Positions 6,501 to 24,071 of a stretch of 24,071 bases of DNA are shown in pieces. Both the position numbers and the translations under genes were made by a program. Within the stretch, counting starts at the first letter, position 1; each line of letters starts with the position of its first letter. Source of the stretch: a virus. The notes below the pieces were generated by a model. It saw only the letters and a list, made by a program, of their open reading frames with translations. It searched no databases and was not told the DNA's origin. The stretch lies in the IMG/VR virus record IMGVR_UViG_3300021379_001542, positions 1-24,071 of that record; one strand, given 5' to 3'.

Positions 6501-7080
6501 AGAACCGTTGCCGTTAAGTAGCGATCAGTTATTTAGAGCATACGGCGGTGAAATTAACAAAATCAAAAGCATTAGTGATGAAATTGTTTATCATCCGGTT
6601 AAATTTAAAGTATTGTTTGGATCAAAAGCAAACCCAAATTTGCAAGCAACTTTAAAAGTAGTAAAAAATACAGATAGAGTTGTAAATGATCAAGATGTAA
6701 AAAGTAAAATCATTGAAGCAATTGAAGAATTTTTTGCACTAGAAAATTGGAACTTTGGTGAAACATTTTATTGGAGTGAATTGAGTGCATATATTATGAA
6801 GTCTTTAGCACCAGATTTGAATAGTATCGTTTTAGTACCAAACAGTGCAACAGATTCGTTTGGAAGTTTATTTGAAGTCAAGTCTGAAAATGATGAAATT
6901 TTTATAAGCGGTGCAACAGTAGATAATGTTGAAATAATTACAGCAATTACAGCAGAACGTTTAAGAGCCAGTGGCGCAATTGTGACGTCTATTAATGATG
7001 CAAGTCAATCAGTTTCTAGCGCAGCAGAAACAATTGTCACTACTCCTAGTAGTTCTAACAGCGGAGGAAGTACTTACTAA
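3595..7080 (+). CDS. gp6: gp6-like baseplate wedge protein (baseplate J-like), enlarged
   Basis: 1161 residues, against about 660 for T4 gp6. The N-terminal ~120 residues fit the gp6 pattern: SYDFDNLRRTMINYIRQNYP followed by ESSEYLSLIDLIAFLGQNIS and ENFIELAERRESVLRLARLI, a helical segment conserved in wedge proteins. A baseplate-J-like segment occurs near residues 428-455 (LITGEDYNLGPLGVSQDIIKA, with the GEDY turn at 433-436). The C-terminal part (about 1000-1100) has KFKVLFGSKANPNLQ and IEEFFALENWNFGETFYWSE, the usual C-terminal wedge-dimer region. The extra ~500 residues lie mostly between these conserved parts (about 500-990) and include an EF-hand-like loop (residues 822-833, DNDDDGVVDNPQ). 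gp6 dimers link neighbouring wedges around the hub. The start is supported by the late promoter and AAGGA 7 nt upstream. The stop overlaps the next ATG by 1 nt. Confidence 0.88.
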   Translation: MSSTDRQNRLLLAEDWQKIYQSFKYADFKSYDFDNLRRTMINYIRQNYPEDFNDYIESSEYLSLIDLIAFLGQNISFRVDLNARENFIELAERRESVLRLARLISYNVTRNQAANGLLKIDSVTTTENIVDTTGSNISGKSVKWNDQTNSNWYEQFIKIMNAAMLNQNQFGSPRKSDIVNGIPTEKYKLNNLQSAFPIFSFNKVINGTNLDFEVVGADIDDGEIIEEAPLTGNKFSLLYRDNGQGAGSSNTGFFLHFRQGTLQRGDFSVSLPTPNQNVEIDATNVNNTDVWLYSLNAQGVEETPWTKVDAVEGNNVIYNSVAKNIKDIFSVLTRTNDRISLIFSDGVFGNLPKGDFRAYYRTSANLDYTIFANNIQNIKVSIPYTSNIGRNETLSIVCSLKQAVTNGASTESTDSIRDNAPSTYYTQNRLITGEDYNLGPLGVSQDIIKAKAINRTSSGINRYYDLRDSTGKYSTTNMFGTDGVIYKDYQTEKTNFSFITKTDIEGVINNTVSNLLEDANLRNYYYDKFTDQEYSDLNVVWQQTTKDTNRSTGFIVDSSNAFDTSAFKYTVSSFTEGVFRYLEPGALVKFVAPSGQHFMPDGTLMAGAADHAGSSDYKWVKVVAVNNGGNELSESGLGGITFNDIIPTGAVLDRIKPKFVRDLVDDVKSVLVDQIFAYRTIALRYDTNARRWAVVTQENVNTTQEWSSGLTGDITQQNLDRSWLVLFETNGVEYTITSRTLRYVFESDKEVRFFYDSTKKIYDSRTGDIVRDKISVLNINKNLNSTGQLTPFTVDYDWAVSAEYRDGIGYVNSKKVEVVFFDNDDDGVVDNPQIFEDITANNDSSQSAYVFVKKSTNDNEFYYYVDADAENIKVVTSEVEATVTTPGDPIFYVSSTNVFYKINSTARTRELIFNYKGYLGRAGLKFQYLHASDENNRIDPSSSNIMDTYLLTKQYDTSYRQYLAGAVDSEPLPLSSDQLFRAYGGEINKIKSISDEIVYHPVKFKVLFGSKANPNLQATLKVVKNTDRVVNDQDVKSKIIEAIEEFFALENWNFGETFYWSELSAYIMKSLAPDLNSIVLVPNSATDSFGSLFEVKSENDEIFISGATVDNVEIITAITAERLRASGAIVTSINDASQSVSSAAETIVTTPSSSNSGGSTY

Positions 7081-10000
7081 TGGAAAGTATTGATTACCCA
7101 TTGCCAACTGGTGATTCAGACAGATCAGCTAAAAGTTTATTACCTAGATATTTTAGATCAGATACTAACAGTAAATTTATTCAGTCAACTGTTGATGCAA
7201 TGATTTCTGAAGGGGTAATAGAAAAGTTAGATGCATATGTAGGTAGAAGAAATTCTCCTACAACAAAAGTCACAGATACTTTTTTACCTGATGTATCTAC
7301 CGATAGAGAAAACTATCAGTTTGAATCAAGTATTGTAAGTAAAGACGATTTAGGTAATGTAAATTTTTATGCTTCATATACAGATTTATTAGGAGTTATT
7401 AAATCATATAAAGGCAGTGTAAGTAATCACAGTGTTTTAAATTCTCAAACAAGTTATAGTTGGAATCCACATGTGGATTTTGACAAGTTTACTAACTTTA
7501 GAGAATATTATTGGCTACCGCTTGGTCCGATACCTGTTGCAGTAAGTGGTAATCAGCGAGGTATTACTAGTGTATATAATGTTGAACTAGGACAAGATGA
7601 TCAAGTACAGAGTTATATCTTCTCTCCTGATGGAATAACAAAGAATCCAACTTTGAAATTGTACAAAGGACAAACTTACAAATTTGATATTAACACACCA
7701 GGCGAGCCTATTTCTTTTGTCACAAATATTGCATATCAAGACAACGATCCTTTGCTAGAGGTTGATGCAGAAAACATTAGTACCATTTACAACACAAACA
7801 TCAAAAGATACAAACGAAACGAAGACGGTGCATACATTGAGACAGACGATGTATGGATTGAAAATGGTCGTATCGAATTTACTCCAGATGATTCAGTTCC
7901 AGCACTGTTATATTATGCAAGTAAAAATAATGCAAATATGAATGGATTGCTTAATTTTTATAACATAAACGAAAATTCGCAAATCGATGTTGAAGATGAA
8001 ATCATAGGCAAAAAATCTTATTCATCGCCGATTGGCGGTAATTTATCCAACGGACAGCGCATTTATTTTGTAGGTGACGTGACTCCAGAAAAGTATGCAA
8101 CAGGAAACTATTTTGTTGAAGGTGTTGGTTCATCTATTAGATTAATACCAGAAACTGAATTAGAAATTCCAGTGCCTTTTTCAACAGTTAAAAATGTTCC
8201 ATTTGATGGCGAAGAATTTGGATTTGACGAGTATCCTTATGAAGACGCCGCTGCATTTGTGGCACAAAAAGATTATATCACAATTAACAGAGGTAGTCCA
8301 GATAAAAATCCATGGTCACGATATAACAGGTGGTTCCATAGAGATGTTATTGTAGAAAGTTATAACCAAGCAGGATTGCCTGTAGAAATAGACGAAGAAG
8401 CTAGAGCCAAACGCCCAATCATTGAATATACATCTGGTTTAAAATTGTATAACCATGGTGCTGTTGCAAAAGAAAATGTTGATCTAGTTGATACGTTTAC
8501 AACTGATGTTTTCAGCACAATTGAAGGCAAAGGCGGATATATCATTGATGGTGTTGAAGTCACAGATGGCATGAGATTATTGTTCACAGCTGACAAAGAC
8601 ATACTTGTTGCAGGAAAAATTTATAAAGTAAAATTTATTAATTTTGGTACAGGTGCAACCAAAAATAGACAAATTACCTTGGTTGAAGAATTGGATACTA
8701 ATCCAAACGAAGGCGATACTGTTTTAATTACTTTAGGTGATGTTAATGCTGGAAAAATGTTCCATTATGAAAACAACAAATGGAATGCCGCACAAGAAAA
8801 GACATCTGTAAATCAACAACCTCATTTTGATTTGTTTGATTCAAATGCGTACAGCTATGGCGATAGCAAACAGTATGAAGGTACTAGTTTTACCGGTACA
8901 AAGTTATTTTCTTATGCACAAGGTAGCGGTACAAACGATGTAGAACTTGGATTTCCATTAAAATACGAAAGTATTAACAATTTTGGAGACATTGTTTTTG
9001 ATTTTAATTACCACACTGATAAATTTACCTATCAAGACAGTGTTCAAAATATTGTAGAAAAAAATACTTCAAGCGGTTTCTTTAAAATCTTTAATCAAGA
9101 CGGCAGTTATAAATGGAAAAGCGTTTGGGAACAAACATATTTTAAATCAAGACAACCTGTTATTAGACAATATAATGGACAATTAAATAATTTTCCTGTA
9201 GATGTTTTTGACAACAGTCATTTACTTGATGATCTAGTAGTTAGAGTTTTTGTTAATAACAAAAAGAAGATCGAAGGTGTTGATTATACATTAGATAATA
9301 CAGCAAACTACAAACAGGTAAGATTTTTTAACAACCTAGACAGCGAAAGCATTGTTGTTTTAAAATGCTATAGTTCAGCAAATAAAAATATTAATGGATA
9401 TTATGAAATTCCAAAAAACTTGGAAAGCAATCCGCAAAATGAAAATATTACAACATTCACACTCGGCGAAGTAAACAAACATGTAAACAGTATTGTTGAA
9501 AACTATCATCCAGTAGCACAAGGTAGCATTCCCGGAAATACAAATCTAAGAGATTTAGAAAACATTGCTCAGTACGGAACGCAGTTTATGAAACACAGCG
9601 GGCCTGTAAATCTTGCAGCATACCATTTAGTTGATAAAAATGCGAACATAATTAAATCTATTCAATTTGCTATGAAAGAATACAGTAGATTTAAAAATAG
9701 TTTTTTGTATCAAGCAAACCAAACCGGTTTTCATGGAGATGTCAAAAAGCATGTTGACTTGATAATGAACACTCTTAACAAAGATAAAACGTCAAGCATG
9801 CCGTTTTTTGCAACTGATATGGTTCCAATGAATGCAACCACAGAAACAGTGCATGAGATTGAATACAATGAAACAGCATATTTGCCTACAAGTTTTACAA
9901 ATTATGATTTGCAAACACTCAGCAACAAAGCAGTTTTAGTTTATGTTGATGACGAACAAAAATATCAAGGTGTTGATTATGATTTTGAAAACGGATTTAT

Positions 10001-13000
10001 AAAATACTATAATCCAACAGTAGGACAAGACATAGTTGTATACGAATATGAAAATACAAATGGATGTTATGTTCCTCCTACACCAACTAAATTGGGTTTA
10101 TATCCTTTATACAAGCCAGAGTTCCAGACTATTACTGGTGCTACTGGCAAAGTAAATGTTATCGTAGGACATGATGGTAGTTATACTACAAGATTTGATG
10201 ACTATAGAGATGAGTTATTGTTAGATCTTGAAAAAAGAATATACAACAATATTAAAACATCATATAACGCTGAATACTTAGACATACACAATTTTATTGG
10301 AGGGTTCAATAGAAACACAGGTGTAAGTAGAGAAACAATCGATGGACTAATACTAGAAGATTTTAGTTCATGGTTAAGCACAGCTGGAAATCCAAATTAC
10401 ACTGAAAACACAAATTGGAGCGGCGAAAATAGTTTTACATTTAACTATAGAAACATGTCAGATACAAATGGCAAAAGATTGCCAGGTGGGTGGCGTGCAA
10501 TCTTTAAACAGTTCTATGACACAGATCGTCCACATACTCATCCTTGGGAAATGCTAGGGTTTAGTATCGAACCTTCCTGGTGGCAAGATGTTTATGGTCC
10601 TGCGCCATATACTCTAAGCAATACAGTGCTTTGGCAAGATTTACGTGACGGTTTTGTAAAAGAACCTGGAAAATCTGTAAAGACTTTAGAAAAGTATAAA
10701 CGTCCAAATCTACTATCTATTATTCCTACCGACGACAATGGAAATTTACGTTCGCCTTTAGATAGCGGAATTGCACAAGGATTTTATCTACCTTCTACAA
10801 GTGAGCCGTTTGTTTATGGAGATCAAGGGCCAACTGAAAGTGCATTTAGAAATAGTAGTGATTATAGATTTGCTATACTAAAGGCTTGGATTGTCAGTAA
10901 GCCATGTGAAGTTTTTGGATTAGGTTTCGATAGAAGTAGAATTATTAAAGATATGGCAGGCAATTTTGTTTACAGCGAAACTGGTCAAGCTATCACTACA
11001 AAGGATTTAATTTTTCCAACAATAACAGGCGAAGATTCAAAACAACACCTAACTGCCGGTTTGGTAAATTATATATCAAATTATGTAAAATGGGCAGTTT
11101 CATCTAGCTATGATGCTTATAAAGAAGATCTACAAAAATTAGATAATCAGTTGAGTATCAAACTAGCTGGCTTTGCTGAAAAAAATAAATTAAAATTATT
11201 ACTTGATAGTAGAAGTCCTTTAAATAAAACCAGTGTATTTGTTCCAGAAGAAAACTATCAAATTTTCTTAAACACTTCGTCGGTGCAAGAAGTTGCAACA
11301 CTTAGTGGTATTTTGATTACTGTAAGTGAAAGTGGATACATTGTACAGGGCTATGATAGTCAAAATCCGTCGTTTACAATTTACCCATACATAGAAACAC
11401 AAAGTGATGCTGCTGTTAATGTTGGTGGAATAAGTGAAAAGTTTTTAAACTGGAGCGAATCTAATACATACACAATTGGTACAGTAGTCAAATACAACAA
11501 TGAATTTTACAGAGCAAAAGTTTCTCATTTAAGTTCTAATGAATTCGAAAATCAAAACTTTACTAAATTAGCAGAGCTTCCTGTTCAAGGAGGTAAAACC
11601 GGAATTATTAGAAGAAGATTTGACAAAACTCCTATAAGTGTTCCTTATGGACAAATTTACAAAACTGAACAAGATGTTGTAGATTTCCTTTTAGGATACG
11701 AAGCATACCTAAAAGATCAAGGTTGGAACTTTGAAAACATCAATCCTGAAAGTGGGCAAGTGGAAGATATGCTTCTGCTACTAAAAGAATTTTTGTTCTT
11801 TACAACACAAAACTGGGATAATGATACAGTATTAGCAATCAGTCCTGCTGCTAATAAAGTCATATTTTCTAAAAAGAATTTCACTATTGACAATGTGTAT
11901 GATAATTTTTATGATGTAGCTATACTGGACGGCAATGGCAATGCAATAGATAGCAGTCTTACAAATATTTTCAGAGATAAAGATACAAGATTTACAATTA
12001 ATCCAATTGGCACACCAGAAGGTATATACTTGATTAAATTACCTTTGGTTCAAAAAGAGCACGTTGTACTAATTGACAATCAAACAGTGTTTTCTGATAC
12101 TATTTTTGATAAAGCAGCAGGATTTAGACAAGAACGTATTAAGTTAGTAGGATACAGAACAGACAATTGGTCTGGTAGTTTGAGTATCCCAGGATTCTTT
12201 TACGATGAAGCCAAAATTGTTGATTGGCAAGAAAACACTGATTATCGTATAGGTGATGTGGTAAAATACAAAGAATTTTATTATAGTGCATTTGGTAATC
12301 ACAGCTCTAAGCAAACATTTGACAATACAAAATGGCGTAGACTAAGTGAAAAACCTGTTTCAGAAATATACCCAAACTGGGATTACAAAGTTAATCAGTT
12401 TGCAGATTTTTATGACTTAGACACTGATAATTTTGATACTGAACAACAACGTTTAGCACAACATTTAATAGGTTATCAAAAAAGACAATATTTGGAAAAC
12501 ATTATCAACGACAGTGTAAGTCAGTATAAGTTTTATCAAGGATTTATACAAGAAAAAGGTACAAATAATGCTATCACTAAATTGTTTGATGCTTTAGGTT
12601 CAGCTAACAAAGACAGTGTAGAACTCTATGAAGAATGGGCAATTAGAGCTGGACAGTACGGATCGATTGATAATATTCAAGAAATTGAATACAAAATTGA
12701 TGAAAGCAAATACAGAATTGAACCACAGTTGTTTGAACTTAACAACAACATTACAATTGGCAGAACTGACCTAGTTTATGAAATTGCAAAAAATCAAGTT
12801 TTTAAATCGCCAGAAGAGTATGATCATACATTAACCAGTGTTGTATCTAATACAGATACTTATACAAAAAATTCAGGATATGTAAGATCAGAAGATGTAG
12901 AATATATTGTGACATCAAAAGATTCTATTGTAAACATAGACATTGACAATTTAGAAATTGGCAAACATATTTGGGTCACTACTGATAAACAATCTTGGAC

Positions 13001-16000
13001 AGTATTGAAGCACAGTCAAAGTGATTTAGAAATACTAGGCTTTACAAATTTAACACTTCCGTCTAGTAATTCTGGAGTAAAAATAAATTGTGACAGACAA
13101 GTTGAAGATATTGCTGTTGGCGATATTGTTGGAATATTTTCAAGTATTCCAAATTTCAAAGGATTTTACAAAGTCACTGATGTATTAGGCAGTGATATTA
13201 CATTTGATTTAGGATCAAGCGAAATTGAAATTAATTTTGAAGATCCTGATGATAGCTTTTCAGCAGTTGGCGGCGCAAGTTTAAGCAGATTTGTAGAAAG
13301 AAGATTTGCTGACTTTGAAACGCTAAATTTGAATATCCAAGATATACAAAAAGATGCAGCCGACAGACTTTGGGTGGACGATAACGGACAAGGTATTTTC
13401 AGTGTATATGAAAATAATAGTGTTATTTCTCTACAACAAGAATATGCAAATTTAGATTCACAACTTACCCGTGTAGCAGAAAGTTATGATGTTAACTTTG
13501 GAAATACAACATTTGTCAAAGGTGACAGCACAGACACATCAGCCACACGAGTGGGTAAAGTATCTTTACTAACTAGGAATGCAGAAAGTTTTCAATTTTC
13601 GGCAGGAGCATTTTTTGAGCCAGGAGACGAAGCTGACATAAATTCTGGATACGGTTCGAGTGTAGCAATATCACCGGATAGTAAATGGATAGTAGTCGGT
13701 GCACCATTAGCAGATAATTTTATATCCCAATTCAAAGGCACATATGATCCTACAGAAGCATACGACCAAAAAGACATAGTTGTTGATAGAGGAACCTTGT
13801 GGAGAGCAAAAAAGGCTGTAAGCAATTGGCATGATAGCTATAGCGACAGTAGTACTATTTCAGATAGCGACAGCAACGATTGGGAAGCAGTCTATAGAAT
13901 TGAACACACAGGTCTTGGAACACCGTCTGGACTTACAAATCAAGGTATTGTACACATTTATGAGTTTGACGATTCTACAAGAGAATACATTTTACACACA
14001 GTTATGTGTAGTCCAGATCCAAATGCAGAAGAACAATTTGGACACCAAGTCGAGTTAAGAAAAACCAATAATGGTACACACCAATTGTATGTAAGTGCTC
14101 CTGGTATAGATATTGGTCGTGTTTACTTCTTTGAATTTGATGAAGAATGGAAATGGACTAGAAATAGAAATTATAAAGGTGTTTTTGATGTTAATGAAAA
14201 ATACAGAGAAAATGACATAGTATTTTATCGCGGCGCTTTGTATCAAGCACTGGTTGAAAGAATTCCTTTGACTACTCCTGTGACTGATAAACTGCCTACT
14301 GATACAAATAGCTGGATTGCAGTACAAGATATAGAACACACTGGATATATTCCAAATAGATATCAAGAACTAGATGGCGATCTTGATACAGGAGAATCAA
14401 ACTTTGGTATCAAATTTGATGTAAACGATCAAGGCGATAAAATTGTTGTTGAGTCTGAGGTAAGCGGTGTTAGAACCCTTAGTGTTTATAACAAGCCAGC
14501 AAACAGATGGAAATATATTCAAGAAATACAAGCAGATACCACAAAAAGAGAAAGCTGGGGTGTAGACTTTGCAATAAATGACGACGGCGATCGTATTGCT
14601 GTTGCAGCACCATACAATGATGATATATCAAATGATGCTGGCACAGTATACGTTTACACACAACAATCTAGCGATTTGTACACGCTAACTCAAAATGTAA
14701 GAAGTCCGTACACAGATAAAAATGAAGCATTTGGTAGTGCAGTTGATTTCAGTGGAAATAAACTTGCAATTTGTGGAAAAAACAGCGACCTTATTGAAGT
14801 CACAGGTTTTGATAATTATCAACTAAAACTAGACAACGGCAATACAGAAATATCAAGAACAATAAAAGATACAGGTAGAATTGTTGTATTCCAACTTATT
14901 AACAACACTTACGTTTACGGTGAGGATATAGAATATAAGAGAAATACATCAAATCACATTCTTGATGATTTCAAATTTAATCAAAATCATTTGTATCTAA
15001 ATATGCCAACTATTACTCCTCTTACAGCAGATAATCCTGCTACAGATAATTCTAAATATGTTAACAGCACACTACAGGGTTTGTTAGCTGACTTTAGCTT
15101 TATTAAAGGAAAAGATAGCTGGACTGTTTTAACAAGTCAACAATCTAAACCAAAGATAGACGAATTACAACAAGTATTTTTGTATAGTGATGATAAAAAA
15201 GATATTATTCAACGTTTGGATGTTATTGATCCAAGACAAGGAAAAATTGCAGGTCCAGCAGAGCAAGAAATTACATTTAAAACTTGGTATGATCCAGCAG
15301 TGTATTCATTTAGCACAGGCGAACAGGATGTTGTAGTTGACGCAAATTCTAACTGGACAGACAAATATGTTGGAAAACTGTGGTGGGATATTAGTCAAGC
15401 AAGTTGGTTTGATCCATATCAAGGTAATAGCAATTATAGAGCAGGTGTGTTCCATAAATTGCTGCCTAATGCACAAATACAAGTTTGCGAATGGGTAGCA
15501 TCTGATTTACTTCCAAGCGAATGGGATGAATTAGCTGGAACAGGAGAAGGCTATTCAAGAGGTGTGACAGGCACAACATTATACGGTAGTGAGGTGTTTA
15601 GTAGCAAGCAAGTATATGATACTGTAAGAAAAACATTTATAACAAAATATTTTTATTGGGTAAGAAATACTCAAATTATTCCTAACGTACCTGGTCGTGT
15701 CTTAAGTTGTGAATCTGTCACTAATTTGATTACTGACCCTGCTTCAACTGGATACAGATTTATTAGTTTACTAGAAAATAATAAATTTGCAATGTACAAC
15801 ATAGCAAGTTTAATCGAAGGTCAAAACACAATCTTACACTTTAGAAAAGAAAAAGATGTTGACCTAAACGTTCCTGTACATTATGAATATAACTTGCTAA
15901 CTGAAGGATTGGATGTTTCTATGCCAAGCAAAGACATAGAACAAAAATGGATTGATAGTTTAATTGGTTATGACAACGTAGGCAATCCAGTTCCTGATGA

Positions 16001-19000
16001 AAATCTACAAGTTTCTAAAAAGTACGGTTTGTTAAATATTCCAAGGCAAAGTATGTTTGTTAACAGAATAGAAGCCGTAAAACAATTTGTTGATAGAGTA
16101 AATTCTGTATTTTTACAAAACATAATAGTTGATAACTATAACATTAGTAAGTTGTTGTTGGTTGATCCTGCTCCTTTGTTAACAGCAGGTAAACACGATG
16201 TAGCAGTTGATACTGTAAATGATTTACAATTTGTTGGAACTGCAAAAAAGACACAAGCTGTACTGACACCTGTTATTGTTGACGGAAAAATAACTGATGT
16301 AATTATCACAAATCCAGGCAATGGATATAAGGTTGCTCCTGAAATTGAATTTGATGATGTCACAGGTAAAAATGCTGAATTAAAAGCAACAATAAACAGC
16401 AATGGACAAATTACCAGTGTTCAAGTAAAAGAACAAGGTTTTGACTATTCTTCTAACACAATTTTAAAAGTTAGAGAGTTTAGTGTTCTAGTGAACGCAG
16501 ATGAAACAATTGGCGGACGTTGGAGCATATATGTTTACAACTCAGCTTCTAGAGAATGGAACAGAACAGATAACCAAAGTTTTGATACTACAAAATACTG
16601 GAATTATGCTGATTATTATGCATCTGGTTATTCAGTAAACACAATTATTAATCAAACAATAGAATCCAGTTATGAATTATTTGGATTAGACAATAACATA
16701 GGTGACATTGTTAAAATTAAAAATATTGGAACAGGCGGTTGGCTCCTGTTAGAAAAAACAAATGATCAAGACACTGAAGACTATACAATTAATTATAAAA
16801 CTGTAGGTAGGCAAAACGGTACAATTCAACTGTCAAGTTTAATTTACAATTACTCAACAGAAACAACCGGTTATGATGCAGGTGTGTATGACATAGCATT
16901 TTACGACAGAGAGCCAGTCAATGAATTAAGAAATATAGTCAATGCTATAAAAACTGATATTTTTGTTGGTGAATTGGCTGTAGAATATAACAAACTATTC
17001 TTTGCAAGTGTAAGATATGCATTATCTGAACAAGAAAATGTTGATTGGGTATTCAAATCAAGTTTCTTAAGAGCAAAACACAACGTTGGAGAACTTGAGC
17101 AAAAAGTTGCATATCAAAATGATAACCTAGAAAATTATCAAGATTATATCAACGAAGTTAAACCATATAAAACAAGTGTTAGAGAATACATAAGTGCATA
17201 CGAAAAAATTGAACCAACTAATAGTTTGATTTCTGACTTTGATTTACCACCTAGTTATATTGGAGGAAAAATTACTCCTAGTGTAGCTAAATTTTCAAAC
17301 AATGAAGTAAGCGATTTATGGCAAAAATACTTTACATATCCGTACAAAAATTGGGTAGATAACAACACTTACGAAATAGTCAGTATCGAAGTCTTAGACG
17401 GAGGCAGCGGATTTAATGATACTCCAAATGTGACTATCAGCGGAGACAGCGGAGCCACTGCAAGAGCATATGTTGCAAAAGGTAAAGTAAAATCTATTGA
17501 AATACTTAAAAAAGGCAACAGAGTATTATCTGCTCCTACAGTCTCAGTCAGTGGTAATCAAGACCCTGACGGTGATCCAGTAAAAGCAAGTGTGATTATT
17601 GGTAATCCTTTGGTAAGAAGCACACATATGACTGTAAAGTTTGATAGAGTTAGCGGTAAGCAATATTTTGAAACTATTGATCAAACAGAAAACTTCTTAG
17701 GAACAGGTGCTAAACAAAAGTTTACTTTACTATGGCCAATGAATGTAAAAACAGATACATTCAGTGTCACAGTAAATGGTGTTGAAATGTTAAAAAGCGA
17801 TTATCAAGTTGGCAATGAACTTGATACTACAAAAGGTTATGATAGATATTTTGGATATATTAATTTTATAGAAGATCCTGCAATTGACGCTGTTATAGTC
17901 GTAAATTACAAAAAAGCAACCAGTTTGCTTAATGCTGCTGATAGAGTATTGTATGAATACAATCCTACTACAGGTATGCCTGGCAAAGAATTAAGCCAAG
18001 TAATGCAAGGAGTAGAATACGAAGGTGCATTATACGATAGTTTTGACTTTGGCAATGAACAAGGGTTTGGTGCCGGCGGCTTTAGTGATTTGCCATGGGA
18101 TACATTTGATAATACATTTAGTGATGAAGTAATCAAACTAGATGGTAGCACGTCTACTATCACCCTTTCAAAAGCATTAGAAAATGGTGTAAATTACAAC
18201 ATATATCTAAATGGTGTAAGGCTAGACGATCCTGCATATGATGGCAGCACTGCTACAGCCAACAAAAATGCTGTAATGGCTACTATCGTAGGTGACGGTG
18301 AGCAAACAGAAATAGATATACAAGGTATATTCACTACAACAGACGGTGACGAAGTTATCATTAGAAAAGAAGAAAGCGACGGATCTTTAGCTCCAGTAAG
18401 CACAAACTTTGATACAAGTTTATCAGGTGGCGCACTTGACAAGACTACTGCTACTGGTATACCAAGTGGAGAAATTGTTGTAGATGGTGACGGATTCTTT
18501 ACTGAAACAAACAGTAAAGGACCCGAAGAACTTGTGCCTGGAACAGTCACAGACACACTAGACTTACAAGTTTACACAAGGCCTAATAATGGACAAGCAA
18601 ATATTGCTGTTGCTAATTATGTCTATGATGGTTCAACAAATGAATTTGAGTTTCCTGAAAAACCATTTGGAGAAACAAATGTTGTTGTAATGGTTAATCA
18701 AAAAGTTCTAAGAGAAGATTTATTTTCAACAGACTTTGATTTAAATGTAGTGTTTATTGATAGCGATCAAAACATTGATGCAGGTGATAGTGTGACTGTA
18801 ATGACATTTGGTTCTAATGGCAACAATTTAATTGATGCTAAAACAATACAACTTAATTCATATGATTTTGCAAATCAACCACAAGAAGAAAATTGGAGAT
18901 TTGTGACAGCCGCAGATTTTAGCAGTGATGCTAGTGCAATTGTTGTTCTTAATGGTCGAATTGCAATCGAAGGCACTGATTACTTCTTGAATATAAGCGA

Positions 19001-20834
19001 TAGTACCACAGAAGCAGCAAACAAAATTGCCATAGAATTTCCAGGAGGTAGTATTAGACTCGACGAAGACAATATAATACAATATGCTGTATATGATACA
19101 AATCTTGTAAGTTATAGTCAAATATATCAAGATATATCGTGGAATCAAACACTAGGAAATTATTGGAACTTTATAGATACTCCAACACCTATCAATGTTA
19201 AACCTTTAGGTCATAACTTAATTGTGTTTGGTGATGATGAAATACTAGATCCGGGTTATAGTATAAGATATACTACAACGTCTGATAGAGTATATGATTT
19301 AGATAGTTGGGCATTTGCAGACCTAACACAGATTAACAGCAGAGATATTTTGGTTTATGCTGACGATGTTAGAGTTGATAGACAGTTTTGGTCTTGGGAT
19401 CAAACAAGTGCTAGAATTACTATTTTGTCAAACACAGTTGCTCCAGCAGGAACAAAACTAGATATCTATGTTATTAATAATGCTGATTATTACTTTATTG
19501 ATACACAAATAGAATTTACAGAGTTAGACGGTAGTACCACTATAAACATGGAATCTTTGGTCACAGTTGGACAACCTCTAAAATTAGTAAGCACAGCAAC
19601 TTCAACTATTTTTAATCCAGTTGTTAAATCGGTATCAAATAATGTAGTTGTAGTGCAAGGTATGGCCAGACAAATTAGAGATGAATTTGTTGCTGATGAA
19701 GATTTCTGGGTCACAAACGATTCTACACAAATGAAAATTGCAAACTTAGAATTTGTAGATAGTGATAGTATCAGTATTGATCCAGAAAAATACAACGGTA
19801 TATTTACAACTTACAGAGTAATGCACTTTAGTAATCACGATGTCAACAAGTTTAGAAGATACAGTTATGATGTTCTCACTGATACAGTTGTTAATGAGTT
19901 TACTCCTGAATATACAAGACGTAATTTGCTTACAAGTGGTATTATTGAACTTGATAGTCAAGCAGCTGGAGCTCAATATGTGTGGGTGGTAAAAAATAAA
20001 AAATTACTACGTCCTTTAATTGACTACGAAGTAATGGAAGAACTTGATGCAGTAAGACTAAATGAAATTCCTGCTGCTAATGACAAAATACAAGTTTTAC
20101 ACTGGGCTAATGCAGTATCAGGTAAACGTTTTGGTTATAGAATATTTAGAGATATGCTTGGCAGAACACACTATAAGCGTCTAAGTCAAGAAAACAGTTA
20201 TGTTTTAGCAGCAAACCTACAACCATATGACAATACTCTTGTGCTTGATGATACAACAGGCATACAGCAACCAAGTACAACAAAAAATATACCAGGTATA
20301 CTTTGGATTGATGGTGAACGCATTGAATACTTTGCAATCCAAGGAAACACATTGTCTCAGTTGCGTAGAGGAACCTTAGGCACAGGTGTTAAGAGTTTGC
20401 ACAAAGCAGGCGATAGAGCATTTGGTCAAGGACCAGGAGAAACAATTGATTACCAAGACACATACGATGTATATAGAGATTTTGCAGATGGGTCAAGTCA
20501 AATTGTAGATCTTGGATTTACATTTGATAACATAAACGAAATTGAAGTGTTTGTTGGTGGCAGAAAGTTAAGTAAAGTTGATGTTGATGTTTACAATAAC
20601 ACAATAGCACAAGACAGTACAGAAGGTGATCAAGTTAGAGCACAAGAGTTTACAGTAGTAGATGTATCAGGAGAAAAGCGTATAAACTTTACAACAACTC
20701 CTGCTGTAAACACAGAAATAAGAGTAGTGAAAAGAACCGGAAAAAGATGGATTCAACCAAACGAAACCCTTAGAACCAGCTCTTCACCAATAGCAAAATT
20801 TATTCGCGGAGCAACAATTGAGCTACCTAAATAA
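7080..20834 (+). CDS. Giant multidomain baseplate/adhesion protein (4584 aa) in the gp7 position
   Basis: One uninterrupted 4584-codon frame (roughly 500 kDa). The ATG overlaps the gp6 stop and GGAGG lies at 7063-7067. The N-terminus (LLPRYFRSDTNSKFIQSTVD, about 20-39; YSWNPHVDFDKFTNFREYYW, about 125-144) resembles very large virion proteins I recall from marine T4-like phages; this is from memory, not a search. Modules seen in order: VNG/DY-type beta repeats (about 717-758, 950-992); CBM5/12-like modules (about 1455-1503, 1713-1760); a beta-propeller with FG-GAP motifs (about 2095-2650) holding two more CBM5/12-like modules (2218-2278, 2364-2422); GxGY repeats (about 3071-3135, 3430-3512); eight further VNG/DY repeats (about 3560-4530); and a DGERIEYFAI...LRRGTLGTG segment (4411-4435). 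No membrane segments or signal peptide. The position after gp6 is that of T4 gp7, the wedge initiator, but I cannot show homology to gp7. Likely a peripheral baseplate and host-surface-binding scaffold (inference). Confidence 0.8.
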   Translation: MESIDYPLPTGDSDRSAKSLLPRYFRSDTNSKFIQSTVDAMISEGVIEKLDAYVGRRNSPTTKVTDTFLPDVSTDRENYQFESSIVSKDDLGNVNFYASYTDLLGVIKSYKGSVSNHSVLNSQTSYSWNPHVDFDKFTNFREYYWLPLGPIPVAVSGNQRGITSVYNVELGQDDQVQSYIFSPDGITKNPTLKLYKGQTYKFDINTPGEPISFVTNIAYQDNDPLLEVDAENISTIYNTNIKRYKRNEDGAYIETDDVWIENGRIEFTPDDSVPALLYYASKNNANMNGLLNFYNINENSQIDVEDEIIGKKSYSSPIGGNLSNGQRIYFVGDVTPEKYATGNYFVEGVGSSIRLIPETELEIPVPFSTVKNVPFDGEEFGFDEYPYEDAAAFVAQKDYITINRGSPDKNPWSRYNRWFHRDVIVESYNQAGLPVEIDEEARAKRPIIEYTSGLKLYNHGAVAKENVDLVDTFTTDVFSTIEGKGGYIIDGVEVTDGMRLLFTADKDILVAGKIYKVKFINFGTGATKNRQITLVEELDTNPNEGDTVLITLGDVNAGKMFHYENNKWNAAQEKTSVNQQPHFDLFDSNAYSYGDSKQYEGTSFTGTKLFSYAQGSGTNDVELGFPLKYESINNFGDIVFDFNYHTDKFTYQDSVQNIVEKNTSSGFFKIFNQDGSYKWKSVWEQTYFKSRQPVIRQYNGQLNNFPVDVFDNSHLLDDLVVRVFVNNKKKIEGVDYTLDNTANYKQVRFFNNLDSESIVVLKCYSSANKNINGYYEIPKNLESNPQNENITTFTLGEVNKHVNSIVENYHPVAQGSIPGNTNLRDLENIAQYGTQFMKHSGPVNLAAYHLVDKNANIIKSIQFAMKEYSRFKNSFLYQANQTGFHGDVKKHVDLIMNTLNKDKTSSMPFFATDMVPMNATTETVHEIEYNETAYLPTSFTNYDLQTLSNKAVLVYVDDEQKYQGVDYDFENGFIKYYNPTVGQDIVVYEYENTNGCYVPPTPTKLGLYPLYKPEFQTITGATGKVNVIVGHDGSYTTRFDDYRDELLLDLEKRIYNNIKTSYNAEYLDIHNFIGGFNRNTGVSRETIDGLILEDFSSWLSTAGNPNYTENTNWSGENSFTFNYRNMSDTNGKRLPGGWRAIFKQFYDTDRPHTHPWEMLGFSIEPSWWQDVYGPAPYTLSNTVLWQDLRDGFVKEPGKSVKTLEKYKRPNLLSIIPTDDNGNLRSPLDSGIAQGFYLPSTSEPFVYGDQGPTESAFRNSSDYRFAILKAWIVSKPCEVFGLGFDRSRIIKDMAGNFVYSETGQAITTKDLIFPTITGEDSKQHLTAGLVNYISNYVKWAVSSSYDAYKEDLQKLDNQLSIKLAGFAEKNKLKLLLDSRSPLNKTSVFVPEENYQIFLNTSSVQEVATLSGILITVSESGYIVQGYDSQNPSFTIYPYIETQSDAAVNVGGISEKFLNWSESNTYTIGTVVKYNNEFYRAKVSHLSSNEFENQNFTKLAELPVQGGKTGIIRRRFDKTPISVPYGQIYKTEQDVVDFLLGYEAYLKDQGWNFENINPESGQVEDMLLLLKEFLFFTTQNWDNDTVLAISPAANKVIFSKKNFTIDNVYDNFYDVAILDGNGNAIDSSLTNIFRDKDTRFTINPIGTPEGIYLIKLPLVQKEHVVLIDNQTVFSDTIFDKAAGFRQERIKLVGYRTDNWSGSLSIPGFFYDEAKIVDWQENTDYRIGDVVKYKEFYYSAFGNHSSKQTFDNTKWRRLSEKPVSEIYPNWDYKVNQFADFYDLDTDNFDTEQQRLAQHLIGYQKRQYLENIINDSVSQYKFYQGFIQEKGTNNAITKLFDALGSANKDSVELYEEWAIRAGQYGSIDNIQEIEYKIDESKYRIEPQLFELNNNITIGRTDLVYEIAKNQVFKSPEEYDHTLTSVVSNTDTYTKNSGYVRSEDVEYIVTSKDSIVNIDIDNLEIGKHIWVTTDKQSWTVLKHSQSDLEILGFTNLTLPSSNSGVKINCDRQVEDIAVGDIVGIFSSIPNFKGFYKVTDVLGSDITFDLGSSEIEINFEDPDDSFSAVGGASLSRFVERRFADFETLNLNIQDIQKDAADRLWVDDNGQGIFSVYENNSVISLQQEYANLDSQLTRVAESYDVNFGNTTFVKGDSTDTSATRVGKVSLLTRNAESFQFSAGAFFEPGDEADINSGYGSSVAISPDSKWIVVGAPLADNFISQFKGTYDPTEAYDQKDIVVDRGTLWRAKKAVSNWHDSYSDSSTISDSDSNDWEAVYRIEHTGLGTPSGLTNQGIVHIYEFDDSTREYILHTVMCSPDPNAEEQFGHQVELRKTNNGTHQLYVSAPGIDIGRVYFFEFDEEWKWTRNRNYKGVFDVNEKYRENDIVFYRGALYQALVERIPLTTPVTDKLPTDTNSWIAVQDIEHTGYIPNRYQELDGDLDTGESNFGIKFDVNDQGDKIVVESEVSGVRTLSVYNKPANRWKYIQEIQADTTKRESWGVDFAINDDGDRIAVAAPYNDDISNDAGTVYVYTQQSSDLYTLTQNVRSPYTDKNEAFGSAVDFSGNKLAICGKNSDLIEVTGFDNYQLKLDNGNTEISRTIKDTGRIVVFQLINNTYVYGEDIEYKRNTSNHILDDFKFNQNHLYLNMPTITPLTADNPATDNSKYVNSTLQGLLADFSFIKGKDSWTVLTSQQSKPKIDELQQVFLYSDDKKDIIQRLDVIDPRQGKIAGPAEQEITFKTWYDPAVYSFSTGEQDVVVDANSNWTDKYVGKLWWDISQASWFDPYQGNSNYRAGVFHKLLPNAQIQVCEWVASDLLPSEWDELAGTGEGYSRGVTGTTLYGSEVFSSKQVYDTVRKTFITKYFYWVRNTQIIPNVPGRVLSCESVTNLITDPASTGYRFISLLENNKFAMYNIASLIEGQNTILHFRKEKDVDLNVPVHYEYNLLTEGLDVSMPSKDIEQKWIDSLIGYDNVGNPVPDENLQVSKKYGLLNIPRQSMFVNRIEAVKQFVDRVNSVFLQNIIVDNYNISKLLLVDPAPLLTAGKHDVAVDTVNDLQFVGTAKKTQAVLTPVIVDGKITDVIITNPGNGYKVAPEIEFDDVTGKNAELKATINSNGQITSVQVKEQGFDYSSNTILKVREFSVLVNADETIGGRWSIYVYNSASREWNRTDNQSFDTTKYWNYADYYASGYSVNTIINQTIESSYELFGLDNNIGDIVKIKNIGTGGWLLLEKTNDQDTEDYTINYKTVGRQNGTIQLSSLIYNYSTETTGYDAGVYDIAFYDREPVNELRNIVNAIKTDIFVGELAVEYNKLFFASVRYALSEQENVDWVFKSSFLRAKHNVGELEQKVAYQNDNLENYQDYINEVKPYKTSVREYISAYEKIEPTNSLISDFDLPPSYIGGKITPSVAKFSNNEVSDLWQKYFTYPYKNWVDNNTYEIVSIEVLDGGSGFNDTPNVTISGDSGATARAYVAKGKVKSIEILKKGNRVLSAPTVSVSGNQDPDGDPVKASVIIGNPLVRSTHMTVKFDRVSGKQYFETIDQTENFLGTGAKQKFTLLWPMNVKTDTFSVTVNGVEMLKSDYQVGNELDTTKGYDRYFGYINFIEDPAIDAVIVVNYKKATSLLNAADRVLYEYNPTTGMPGKELSQVMQGVEYEGALYDSFDFGNEQGFGAGGFSDLPWDTFDNTFSDEVIKLDGSTSTITLSKALENGVNYNIYLNGVRLDDPAYDGSTATANKNAVMATIVGDGEQTEIDIQGIFTTTDGDEVIIRKEESDGSLAPVSTNFDTSLSGGALDKTTATGIPSGEIVVDGDGFFTETNSKGPEELVPGTVTDTLDLQVYTRPNNGQANIAVANYVYDGSTNEFEFPEKPFGETNVVVMVNQKVLREDLFSTDFDLNVVFIDSDQNIDAGDSVTVMTFGSNGNNLIDAKTIQLNSYDFANQPQEENWRFVTAADFSSDASAIVVLNGRIAIEGTDYFLNISDSTTEAANKIAIEFPGGSIRLDEDNIIQYAVYDTNLVSYSQIYQDISWNQTLGNYWNFIDTPTPINVKPLGHNLIVFGDDEILDPGYSIRYTTTSDRVYDLDSWAFADLTQINSRDILVYADDVRVDRQFWSWDQTSARITILSNTVAPAGTKLDIYVINNADYYFIDTQIEFTELDGSTTINMESLVTVGQPLKLVSTATSTIFNPVVKSVSNNVVVVQGMARQIRDEFVADEDFWVTNDSTQMKIANLEFVDSDSISIDPEKYNGIFTTYRVMHFSNHDVNKFRRYSYDVLTDTVVNEFTPEYTRRNLLTSGIIELDSQAAGAQYVWVVKNKKLLRPLIDYEVMEELDAVRLNEIPAANDKIQVLHWANAVSGKRFGYRIFRDMLGRTHYKRLSQENSYVLAANLQPYDNTLVLDDTTGIQQPSTTKNIPGILWIDGERIEYFAIQGNTLSQLRRGTLGTGVKSLHKAGDRAFGQGPGETIDYQDTYDVYRDFADGSSQIVDLGFTFDNINEIEVFVGGRKLSKVDVDVYNNTIAQDSTEGDQVRAQEFTVVDVSGEKRINFTTTPAVNTEIRVVKRTGKRWIQPNETLRTSSSPIAKFIRGATIELPK
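11442..11588 (+). other. CBM5/12-like module 1 of the giant protein
   Basis: Residues about 1455-1503. Pattern W-x(4)-TYTIGTVVKYNNEFYRA followed by an FTKLAEL strand. This is the 'W...Y..GD.V.Y.G..Y.A' pattern of carbohydrate-binding family 5/12 (ChtBD3-type) modules, about 50 residues long. In bacteria such modules bind chitin or related glycans; on a phage baseplate they would suit contact with host surface polysaccharide (inference). Confidence 0.6.
12216..12359 (+). other. CBM5/12-like module 2 of the giant protein
   Basis: Residues about 1713-1760. Pattern IVDWQENTDYRIGDVVKYKE, then FYYSAFGNHSS and KWRRLSEKP. It has the same order of Trp, Tyr, Gly-Asp-Val-Val and Tyr residues as module 1, indicating a diverged internal duplicate. 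Confidence 0.6.
13731..13913 (+). other. CBM5/12-like module 3, inserted within a propeller blade
   Basis: Residues about 2218-2278. Pattern GTYDPTEAYDQKDIVVDRGT, then LWRAKK, a Ser/Asp-rich loop (DSYSDSSTISDSDSND) and WEAVYRIEHTG. It interrupts an FG-GAP blade between its VVGAPLADN strand and its GIVHIYEFDD strand. The 'IEHTG' ending is shared with module 4. Confidence 0.55.
14169..14345 (+). other. CBM5/12-like module 4, inserted between propeller blades
   Basis: Residues about 2364-2422. Pattern YKGVFDVNEKYRENDIVFYR, then GALYQALVE and SWIAVQDIEHTG. It is the closest relative of module 3, sharing the GxxD/YxxxDIV core and the W-x-AV-x(2)-IEHTG ending. It follows the GRVYFFEFDEEWKW strand and precedes the next FG blade. 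Confidence 0.55.
16290..17615 (+). repeat. GxGY-type beta repeats in the giant protein (two clusters)
   Basis: Two separated clusters share a pattern 'ItdV.I...G.GY...P.v.......a.A.....G.I.sV.V...G': residues about 3071-3135 (ITDVIITNPGNGYKVAPEIE and ITSVQVKEQGFDYSS) and about 3430-3512 (IVSIEVLDGGSGFNDTPNVT and VKSIEILKKGNRVLSAPTVS). Each cluster has two units of about 35-40 residues. The nucleotide range spans both clusters and the unrelated sequence between them. Similar repeats are common in large phage structural and adhesin-like proteins. Confidence 0.55.
17750..20740 (+). repeat. Tandem degenerate 'VNG...DY' beta modules at the C-terminus of the giant protein
   Basis: Eight diverged units follow the pattern 'v.VxVNgxxLxxxxDYxv......i.f...p..gd.I.V..'. 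The recognisable cores are FSVTVNGVEMLKSDY (about 3560), YNIYLNGVRLDDPAY (about 3706), VVVMVNQKVLREDLF (about 3867), IVVLNGRIAIEGTDY (about 3953), LIVFGDDEILDPGYS (about 4046), ILVYADDVRVDRQFW (about 4090), YVWVVKNKKLLRPLIDY (about 4300) and IEVFVGGRKLSKVDV (about 4488). Two more copies sit in the N-terminal part (about 717 and 951). Copies are diverged at both protein and DNA level, so this is an ancient module array and not a recent tandem repeat. Confidence 0.6.
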
Positions 20835-21466: not shown

Positions 21467-23530
21467 ATGGCAGACTATACCATAAACTTTACAGATTTAA
21501 TTAACAAAGGTTCTCTTACAGTTGAAGAAAATGGACTAAATTCTACAGATACAAGTTTAAAATTAGTAGGACAGAATCTGTCTGGTTATGGTGCTTATAT
21601 CAACGAAAACTTTTTGCATATTTTAGAAAATTTTGCAAATACTACTGCACCTAGTAGTCCAGTAGAAGGACAACTTTGGTACGATACAACTACAGGTGTA
21701 GATCAATTAAAAGTATACGATGGTGCGGCATGGGTAGCAGCAGGCGGTATTAAAAAAGCAGCTTCGCAGCCAGAAGCAAGTGCAAGTATACTTGGAGATA
21801 TTTGGGTAGATACAGCAAATTTACAAGCATATATCTATAGTGGAAGTGGTTGGGTTTTAATTGGACCAGACTACAGTGAGTCTACTGCTACAGGCGCAAA
21901 AATAGAAACACTTGTTGGCACAAGCACACTACTTGGCACTGATGCAAATCACACAGTATTAATTAATTATGTAAACAATAATATTATTGCAGTTTACAGC
22001 TATGTTGAATTTACACCAAAAGTTAAAGTCACTGGATTTCCTACAGGTTATGTAATGAAACCTGGTGTTAATATTCCAACAGAAGCTATATTTTCTGGAG
22101 CAAAAGCAAAATATTATGGAACCAGTGAAAAAGCAGAAGCGTTAGTAGATGCAAGTGGAAATAACAGCATTGTCTACGGAGATGTTGCAACAAAGGATGT
22201 GACAAATAGATTTACAAAAGAACAAAGGATTGCAAGCAATGCAGGACTTACTATTGGTGAAAATGGAATCTTAACAGCAAGTGTCACAGGATCGTCAGTG
22301 ACTATTAGAAATAAAGCCACAGACGGATCAATTAATTTTAACACAAATAACAGTGGAGCAAATCAAACCTCTTTGTATATTGCATCTGATGGAAAACATG
22401 GTATTTTGAATACTTCACCAGAAGAAGCATTAGATGTCACTGGAAATATAAAAGCATCAAAAATAATTTCTACAAGTACCTTGAACAGTACTAATACAAC
22501 AGATGGTGCAATTAACACAGCTGGTGGAATTGGTATTGCAAAAGATATCAATGTTGGCGGTGATGCTTATTTTAACCAAAACGATACAAATAATACAAGC
22601 TCAATTTATGCTGAAAATATACAACCTTATACAACTTTAGCAAATAGTATTGGTACACCTAATTTAAAATATGCTCATGTATATTCAAATACTTTCCACG
22701 GAAATTTAGAAGGAAATGTCACAGGTAATGTAAGCGGTAGTGCGCAAACAGCAGGTAAACTTGCTAGTCCTACAACTTTCCAATTCAATAGCGCAGGTGA
22801 TGTGACTGCAACAGGTAGTGTCACATTTGACGGTCAAGTTGGCGGCACAACTAAAGAATGGACATTGAATATTGATGCAAATTTTCTTACAAATCAAACT
22901 CCAGTGTCGGTATCAACAGCAGGAACAGATGAATTCCTAGTTTATAACTCAGAAGGTTTGCGTAAAATGACGCAGGCACAAATTGTTAGTACAATACCAG
23001 TATTTCAAATTGCAATGATAATGCCATACGCAGGAACTGTTGCACCAACTGGGTGGGAGTTATGTCACGGACAAGAACTTGCACGAGGCGGCGATTATGA
23101 GCCGTTATATGCTATTATAGGCGATCGATATGGAACACCTAGTACACCAGACTTTTTTGTGCTACCTGATTTTAGAGGAAGATTTTTACTTGGACACTTG
23201 GGTGCAGCAACAAGCGGAAACAGAGTGTTAAACGACACAGCAGCTAATACAGTTGGTTTAACTGGCGGCTCTGAATCTCATATTCTTACCCAAGAACAAT
23301 TACCAGATCACACGCACAGTATGCAAGGCGACAACGGCGAACAATATTATGGAGTCACAAATGTCACAGGTGGCACAGATACTGGTGCAAGTTCTCAAAA
23401 TATTTCAGGAACGACAACAGGCACAGGAATTGATAGAACAGGATCAATGAATGACATACAAAGTAATCCTTATTATCATACCAGTCCGTATACAACAGTT
23501 GAGTTTATTATCTACACAGGAGGGTCTTAA
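21467..23530 (+). CDS. Tail fibre protein with C-terminal phage tail collar domain
   Basis: 687 residues; strong GAGGGG (21456-21461) 5 nt before the ATG. The N-terminal ~140 residues form a module with SLKLVGQNLSGYGAYINENF, LENFA and GQLWYDTTTG (32-77), followed by LKVYDG and GDIWVDTANLQAYIY. It is shared with the next gene and probably anchors the fibre to the baseplate. The middle is fibre-like: an SPEEALDVTGNIKASKI segment (317-333), TAGGIGIAKDINVGGDAYF (351-369) and HGNLEGNVTGNVSGSAQTAG (411-430). The C-terminus has a tail-collar signature: MIMPYAGTVAPTGWELCHGQ (517-536), IGDRYGTPSTPDFFVLPDFR (551-570), then LTQEQLPDHTHSM (607-619) and TTVEFIIYTGGS. It is comparable in role to T4 short-fibre (gp12-type) or other collar-domain fibres, which bind host surface receptors. 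The His-x-His pair in PDHTHSM may be a metal-binding site as in gp12 (inference). Confidence 0.88.
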   Translation: MADYTINFTDLINKGSLTVEENGLNSTDTSLKLVGQNLSGYGAYINENFLHILENFANTTAPSSPVEGQLWYDTTTGVDQLKVYDGAAWVAAGGIKKAASQPEASASILGDIWVDTANLQAYIYSGSGWVLIGPDYSESTATGAKIETLVGTSTLLGTDANHTVLINYVNNNIIAVYSYVEFTPKVKVTGFPTGYVMKPGVNIPTEAIFSGAKAKYYGTSEKAEALVDASGNNSIVYGDVATKDVTNRFTKEQRIASNAGLTIGENGILTASVTGSSVTIRNKATDGSINFNTNNSGANQTSLYIASDGKHGILNTSPEEALDVTGNIKASKIISTSTLNSTNTTDGAINTAGGIGIAKDINVGGDAYFNQNDTNNTSSIYAENIQPYTTLANSIGTPNLKYAHVYSNTFHGNLEGNVTGNVSGSAQTAGKLASPTTFQFNSAGDVTATGSVTFDGQVGGTTKEWTLNIDANFLTNQTPVSVSTAGTDEFLVYNSEGLRKMTQAQIVSTIPVFQIAMIMPYAGTVAPTGWELCHGQELARGGDYEPLYAIIGDRYGTPSTPDFFVLPDFRGRFLLGHLGAATSGNRVLNDTAANTVGLTGGSESHILTQEQLPDHTHSMQGDNGEQYYGVTNVTGGTDTGASSQNISGTTTGTGIDRTGSMNDIQSNPYYHTSPYTTVEFIIYTGGS

Positions 23531-24071
23531 TGAGCTATAAAATTAATAAAACCGATGGAACTCTATTAGTAGATTTAATTGACGGTGCTATAGATACTAC
23601 ATCAACTGATGTCACACTTGTTGGCAGAAATTACACTGGCTATGGAGAAGCATTCAATGAAAACTTTGTAAAAATCATTGAAAACTTTGCTGCTACAAGT
23701 GCTCCTGCAAATCCTTTAAGAGGACAAATTTGGTATGATACAAGCGAAGGCAGACTAAAAGTTTGGGACGGCGAACAGTTTAGAGGCACTGATACAACAA
23801 CTTACAGTGCAATTAAACCAACCTTGGTTGCTGGTGATTTATGGATTGACGCTACTAATAAACAACTTTATTTTAGTGACGGTGCAGCAGAGTATCTAGT
23901 TGGCCCTAGTTATACTAGAACGCAAGCAAAAACAGAATATGATGCAATTAGTCTTATAGATAGCTTTGGAATTACAAAAACTGTAGGTAGATGGAGTGTT
24001 GGAAATAGAACCGTAGCTCTTGTTTGTGCAGAAGATTTTACAGCAGCAACTATTGATTCCAATGTGGCACT
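23530..24071 (+). CDS. Paralogous tail fibre / structural protein, N-terminal part (3'-truncated by window)
   Basis: The ATG shares its A with the upstream TAA and is preceded by AGGAGGG (23518-23524), the strongest ribosome site in the window. 180 complete codons are visible and the frame is open at the window end. The N-terminus MSYKINKTDGTLLVDLIDGA is followed by TDVTLVGRNYTGYGEAFNEN (26-45), IIENFAATSAPANPLRGQIW (49-68), YDTSEGRLKVWDG and GDLWIDATNKQLYF (102-115). These align along their length with residues about 10-125 of the preceding 687-aa fibre, so the two genes are tandem duplicates that have diverged at most positions. The visible C-terminal part (FGITKTVGRWSVGNRTVALV) does not match the first copy, indicating a different shaft or tip. 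Whether it carries a collar domain lies beyond the window. Confidence 0.85.
   Translation, partial: MSYKINKTDGTLLVDLIDGAIDTTSTDVTLVGRNYTGYGEAFNENFVKIIENFAATSAPANPLRGQIWYDTSEGRLKVWDGEQFRGTDTTTYSAIKPTLVAGDLWIDATNKQLYFSDGAAEYLVGPSYTRTQAKTEYDAISLIDSFGITKTVGRWSVGNRTVALVCAEDFTAATIDSNVA

Follow-up and report, generated by a model that had tools for sequence, protein, structure and literature searches.

A viral DNA record of 24,071 bases, analysed over its whole length and called the window here, encodes a protein of 4584 residues (ORF 7080-20834, plus strand) in which segments resembling carbohydrate-binding modules of the CBM5/12 type lie within an apparent beta-propeller. Two questions arise: whether these segments are domains inserted into an existing propeller, and what they do there. 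The first-pass annotation had read the interval 13731-14345 (residues 2218-2422 of the ORF) as a duplicated insertion displaying glycan-binding modules on the propeller face.

Genomic setting of the giant protein

The genes and segments that define the setting are as follows.

3595-7080, plus strand: gp6-like baseplate wedge gene, 1161 residues, immediately 5' of the giant ORF (phrog_10646, E 7.8e-288)
7080-20834, plus strand: giant baseplate-region protein, phrog_10938 'virion structural protein' (PHROGs and tblastn)
11451-11573, plus strand: CBM5/12 module 1, lying outside the propeller at residues 1458-1498 (Pfam or profile)
12225-12347, plus strand: CBM5/12 module 2, lying outside the propeller at residues 1716-1756 (profile)
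15135-15659, plus strand: conserved segment 3' of the propeller, common to the named relatives (14 invariant columns in nine sequences)

Across most of residues 1-1800 the protein shares about 28% identity by tblastn with giant structural proteins from Atu_ph07, PA5oct, Phosso and SCTP-2. The annotation of phrog_10646 is 'baseplate wedge subunit', and in PA5oct and Phosso the baseplate wedge annotation is on the gene preceding the giant-protein homologue. The giant proteins of these four phages and of RaK2 share a homologous scaffold and the same place after gp6-like genes, but differ in the propeller, whose profile matched none of the 12 named phage proteins examined. In T4, gp7 comes directly after gp6, and the giant ORF has the corresponding position directly 3' of the gp6-like gene. 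Pfam searches of the 4584-residue protein at E up to 1 revealed neither a gp7 nor a Dit family, its neighbour being the gp6-like wedge gene, and a sequence search found no solved structure of it. The source of the window is probably a T4-related jumbo phage.

The part of the giant protein that the propeller takes up, about 13040-15135 (residues ~1990-2685), varies among phages. It is short in RaK2-like phages, is long and of unrelated sequence in Atu_ph07 and Phosso, and looks LamG-like by eye in SCTP-2. Further downstream in the window, the adjoining proteins of 21467-23530, which has tail-protein matches, and 23530-24069 begin with an alike N-terminus (..VG.N..GYG...NENF..I.ENFA...AP..P..GQ.WYDT), suggesting duplicated fibre genes.

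A propeller of the integrin alpha type

Residues 2085-2705 were modelled from an alignment of 23 sequences (pLDDT 73.5, pTM 0.79). Seven four-stranded blades were counted from the DSSP strands of the model, the assignment of strands to blades being ours.

13425-15149, plus strand: seven-bladed integrin-alpha-type FG-GAP propeller, residues ~2116-2690 (model, profile)
13425-13448, plus strand: N-terminal strand, residues 2116-2123, probably closing blade 7 as its strand 4 (DSSP E32-39)
13470-13616, plus strand: blade 1 (DSSP strands, our assignment)
13659-14009, plus strand: blade 2, with module 3 interrupting strands 2 and 3 (model strands)
14049-14153, plus strand: blade 3 (model strands)
14415-14531, plus strand: blade 4 (model strands)
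14565-14702, plus strand: blade 5, FG-GAP_2 match (Pfam, model strands)
14730-14930, plus strand: blade 6, with a beta hairpin in the 2-3 loop (model strands)
14970-15101, plus strand: blade 7, strands 1 to 3 (model strands)

FG-GAP_2 scored 31.7 bits in the whole protein and 43.5 bits in the propeller region (Pfam cut-off 23). A profile of 23 relatives compared with solved sequences gave 19 matches at E up to 0.01, all 19 of them integrin alpha chains and the best integrin alpha-4 (E 6e-14); the top solved matches of the window model in Foldseek were also integrin alpha chains. With VIA the window model aligned to integrin alphaM at Z 27.5 and to Gbeta, itself a propeller of seven blades, at 27-28; the alignments to alphaM begin at model residue 30, which bears on the N-terminal strand. 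Integrin alpha propellers are described as seven-bladed (PMC5076510).

The propeller of the relative L120, which is naturally without module 3, was modelled at pLDDT 78.9. VIA aligned 346 of its residues to integrin alphaM (Z 33.1, rmsd 3.0), and integrin entries occupied ranks 1-43 of the list. Since L120 models as a complete propeller, the blades are independent of module 3. A propeller was predicted both with module 3, in the window, and without it, in L120, the kind of comparison by which the first-pass annotation had proposed to check its nested reading.

The calcium-binding motif of the 1-2 loops in integrin-alpha-type propellers is DxDxDG; the propeller sequence contains partial forms only, such as NDDGD in blade 5. 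In the named phages the window propeller gave no tblastn match at 1e-5, and the L120 propeller matched two records (E 6e-3 and 7e-3). A DNA-pattern scan of genome contigs for the window propeller returned 20 matches, none of them a relative, and a literature search found no paper joining FG-GAP, phage and baseplate.

Position of modules 3 and 4

Two modules and one variable loop are located within the propeller.

13731-13907, plus strand: CBM5/12-like module 3 (residues 2218-2276), set into blade 2 at its 2-3 loop (model, profile)
13821-13880, plus strand: residues 2248-2267, Ser/Asp-rich variable loop within module 3 and site of a ~480-residue domain in relatives (relatives' alignments)
14172-14339, plus strand: CBM5/12-like module 4 (residues 2365-2420), set into the 4-1 loop that joins blades 3 and 4 (profile; model pLDDT 34-61)

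Module 3 had been said to part the strands VVGAPLADN (13692-13718) and GIVHIYEFDD (13944-13973); the coordinates are exact, and in the model the two are the second and third strands of blade 2. Module 4, described earlier as lying between successive blades, links strand 4 of blade 3 to strand 1 of blade 4 in our strand assignment. In the window model, module 3 has four short strands at pLDDT 61-89, and module 4 has pLDDT 34-61. By our count from the model strands, all 13 of the 1-2 and 3-4 loops have 1-5 residues; the 2-3 and 4-1 loops, also 13 in number and the kinds in which both modules are located, range from 2 to 87 residues. The 2-3 and 4-1 loops of four-stranded propeller blades open on one common face, and modules 3 and 4 are predicted by the model to sit in loops that open on the same face of this propeller.

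Kinship of the modules with CBM5/12

Over the whole protein CBM_5_12 scored 44.2 bits (Pfam cut-off 26.2) in three stretches, the best in module 1. Within the propeller region module 4 scored 23.1 bits (E 7.6e-5), just below the cut-off, and module 3 alone gave no Pfam match, being detected only via relatives. The propeller of L146 scored 32 bits, over the cut-off, and 22 of the 27 in-propeller modules matched CBM_5_12 at E up to 1. Identity between modules 3 and 4 is 40% (alignment score 86, versus 13-29 with modules 1 and 2). The profile built from the upstream modules only (A5) missed module 3 and gave module 4 3.9 bits, against 5.0 for the best of 200 shuffles; upstream and in-propeller modules compared profile to profile gave E 9.6e-12.

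Among solved sequences the profile of the 27 in-propeller modules matched the chitin deacetylase DA1 (E 2.8e-8) and chitinase 2rts (E 1.8e-7), as well as phage and pyocin tail fibres including Milano gp124. The chitin-binding domain of chitinase A1 (ChiA1, 1ED7) was matched at E 8.6e-7 by the upstream-module profile and at 0.0031 by the in-propeller profile. On these profile comparisons the in-propeller modules appear to belong, as a family, to CBM5/12.

Relatives lacking, multiplying or splitting the modules

To collect relatives, viral contigs were scanned twice with DNA patterns and once at the protein level; the sample includes near-copies, and counts refer to the matches listed. In the set of 161 proteins the propeller profile had at least 108 matches among those listed, 33 of which (of 108, again among the matches listed) contained at least one CBM match inside the propeller span.

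Module 3 is absent from L107 and L120, and blade 2 is complete in both. Comparison with relatives lacking the insertion, also proposed at the outset, therefore left the blade intact. These relatives, the confident propeller model and the CBM5/12 kinship of the module family together uphold the domain-in-domain architecture first read from the letters. L107 has no CBM match inside its propeller, and L120 has, linking its blades 1 and 2, a CBM-like stretch with a model pLDDT of 34-40. At blade 3 of both (L107:12393-14051, L120:2034-3785) the place of module 4 is taken by another small beta domain, which may lie between strands 3 and 4. Because of that domain, not every insert need share one face. 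In the tree of the relatives, which is unrooted and has 5 of 32 inner branches open, L107 and L120 fall in a clade with the module-bearing L056, so that loss of module 3 seems likelier than never having had it. The same insertion points recur across the deep tree.

The content of these points varies. The module 3 site holds a single module in the window and in L002, L133, L056, L135, L145, L146 and L096, and two modules in L115 and L148; by eye, a small insert splits the module there in L071 and also in L115 and L148. A third module occurs in blade 4 of L146, L096 and L145, and tandem modules occupy the module 4 site in L065, L078, L104 and L138.

In further relatives a domain of about 480 residues divides the module that occupies the module 3 site. 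Among the matches listed for the 161 proteins it was found in full at no fewer than 10 loci (L061, L065, L060, L104, L127, L130, L078, L089, L095 and L097) and at a contig edge at two. The nested domains form one family, with 24-49% identity among seven aligned members. Seven of them had nothing above the curated cut-off in Pfam, and for three the best E in PHROGs was 0.057. Gp7 domain V was considered for the nested domain and set aside, one of the seven giving one weak Gp7_5th match below cut-off (E 0.0068). Past the nested domain the last strand of the module, N-x-D-W-x-x-V-Y, resumes as in the window. In five of seven cases the C-terminal half outscored every segment of the nested domain (the exceptions were L065 and L104). 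Joined N- and C-terminal halves, scored as one CBM, exceeded all 40 random joins at 1 of 9 loci, an uninformative comparison beside the clearer one with C-terminal halves alone. As far as sequence can tell, nesting reaches three levels, a ~480-residue domain in a module in a propeller.

Duplication and selection

The motif IEHTG ends both modules of the window (13899-13913 and 14331-14345) and had been taken as the sign of a duplicated insertion. Module 3 of the close relative L002 has no IEHTG ending, so the motif is not diagnostic of duplication; this module, together with the lack of any remaining DNA direct repeat in 13560-14460, rules out IEHTG as the mark of a recent duplication. A common origin of modules 3 and 4 by duplication is possible and, since no direct repeat remains in that interval, would be old. 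Duplication thus survives from the first reading as a possibility, and the evidence offered for it does not.

Between the window and L002, dN/dS was 0.061 for the whole protein, 0.024 for module 4 and 0.038 for module 3, the last being a rough value because dS is near saturation (2.195). Residues 2120-2217 (13437-13730), which precede module 3, gave 0.251 at 80.6% identity; in this pair they diverge faster than the remainder of the protein. By these ratios modules 3 and 4 are retained by selection rather than drifting, and purifying selection of this strength fits a conserved ligand equally well as a scaffold.

Contact residues and the role of the modules

The residues of ChiA1 that contact chitin are described as His681, Thr682, Trp687, Pro689 and Pro693 (PMC2265269). 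The columns for His681 and Thr682 were set directly by profile alignment to 1ED7. The Trp687 column was reached by counting on along ChiA1, using what we take to be its last residues. Residues were counted over distinct sequences after all modules (13 of 192 distinct modules) of L088, L092, L115, L136 and L148, five of the 33 relatives with a CBM match inside the propeller span and ambiguous in placement, had been left out. Histidine was present at the His681 position in none of 34 in-propeller modules, versus 51 of 141 other modules of the same proteins. An aromatic residue occupied the Trp687 position in 5 of 32 versus 111 of 135, the in-propeller alignment being uncertain at this column because it adjoins a loop of variable length. 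The pattern was the same with 70% representatives (His, 0/27 versus 41/114; aromatic, 4/25 versus 93/111). Modules 3 and 4 themselves have neither equivalent in the alignment used, and in-propeller modules generally differ from 1ED7, which their profile matches, in mostly lacking both.

Because the chitin-contact residues are mostly lost in the propeller, glycan display through the CBM5/12 site is unsupported for modules 3 and 4. The kinship of the fold is unaffected by this loss, and it is the sugar-binding claim that is lowered. The loop of module 3 retains a Trp and a Tyr, and to judge from these residues the module might bind sugars in a different way. Of the display on the propeller face first proposed, the common face therefore stands and binding at the CBM5/12 site does not.

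That modules 3 and 4 nevertheless bind host surface sugars and so aid adsorption is a reading we consider unlikely. It can call on CBM5/12 family membership, on the selective constraint on modules that open on one face, and on the CBMs inserted in phage Dit proteins, described as possible or functional binders that contribute to cell-wall polysaccharide binding (PMC8540738). Against this, the chitin-contact residues gone from the propeller are more often kept elsewhere in the same proteins, and related folds in solved phage tails occupy tail- or head-binding parts. Residues 1-175 of Milano gp124 are reported as a tail-binding module (PMC10811340), and domain D2 of CBA120 TSP1 as a head-binding part with the ChiA1 fold, for which its authors state that polysaccharide binding was never reported (PMC3966878). 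These tailspikes resemble the window protein in having a ChiA1-like chitin-binding-type sequence or fold in a tail protein; in the parts described the domains are near the N-terminus, whereas the window modules are insertions in propeller loops.

If instead the modules were loop insertions tolerated without any particular role, the complete absence of module 3 from L107 and L120 and the wide variation in size and content at its site would be readily explained. The dN/dS of the modules (0.02-0.04), below that of residues 2120-2217, and the recurrence of the insertion points over the deep tree make this reading improbable. Hardly any weight can be given to a chance likeness of integral blade strands to CBM5/12, which could appeal to the failure of the upstream-only profile and of Pfam to find module 3, since relatives without that module keep blade 2 and fold, as modelled, into a complete propeller and CBM_5_12 is matched by most in-propeller modules.

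The reading that we favour, by a modest preference, gives modules 3 and 4 a structural role, as a socket on an exposed face, with sugar binding at the canonical site unlikely for both. The propeller would be an accessory head set in the baseplate scaffold, at a place where other phages carry different segments, and the modules would be CBM5/12-fold domains inserted in two loops of one of its faces. Their small beta fold, with a variable loop able to take further domains, would suit them as mounting sockets and spacers. Since that loop accepts domains, the exposed face could be rebuilt with the blades undisturbed; the socket of module 3 would carry a short Ser/Asp-rich loop in the window phage and the ~480-residue domain in relatives. 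We infer that the face with the modules is directed at the host and that mounting, not sugar binding, is their main job.

The closest architectural parallel is found in the integrin alpha chains with an I domain (alphaM, alphaL, alphaX and alphaE), which also have a domain inserted between the blades of a seven-bladed FG-GAP propeller. The phage propeller matches integrin alpha chains best in both sequence and structure, and the likeness is architectural only. The I domain is described as a vWFA domain of about 200 residues between blades 2 and 3 (PMC10659397); the phage, in contrast, has CBM5/12-like modules within blade 2 and at the junction of blades 3 and 4, and its protein belongs to the baseplate region. 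Evolved Dits of siphophages (J-1, skunaviruses and OE33PA) likewise have modules of carbohydrate-binding type inserted in a tail-tip protein. They differ in the Dit scaffold and, in OE33PA, in a CBM4-type module, and the parts of that source drawn on here describe neither a propeller nor a third level of nesting (PMC8540738). Integrins and evolved Dits provide known cases of domain insertion, which this architecture extends by a third nesting level. More tentatively, the modules may act as general plug sockets through which a lineage swaps host-contact parts of up to ~480 residues on one propeller face, leaving the underlying fold intact, a phage counterpart of the inserted domain of integrins.

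A CBM5/12 match in a phage tail is thus to be taken with caution, as not always marking a sugar binder. The giant baseplate protein may gain parts by nesting, to a depth of as many as three levels, at loop positions that are fixed and recur, and its relatives supply natural intermediates with no module, one module, tandem modules or a split module, which makes it possible to test how contractile phages may change their host contacts.
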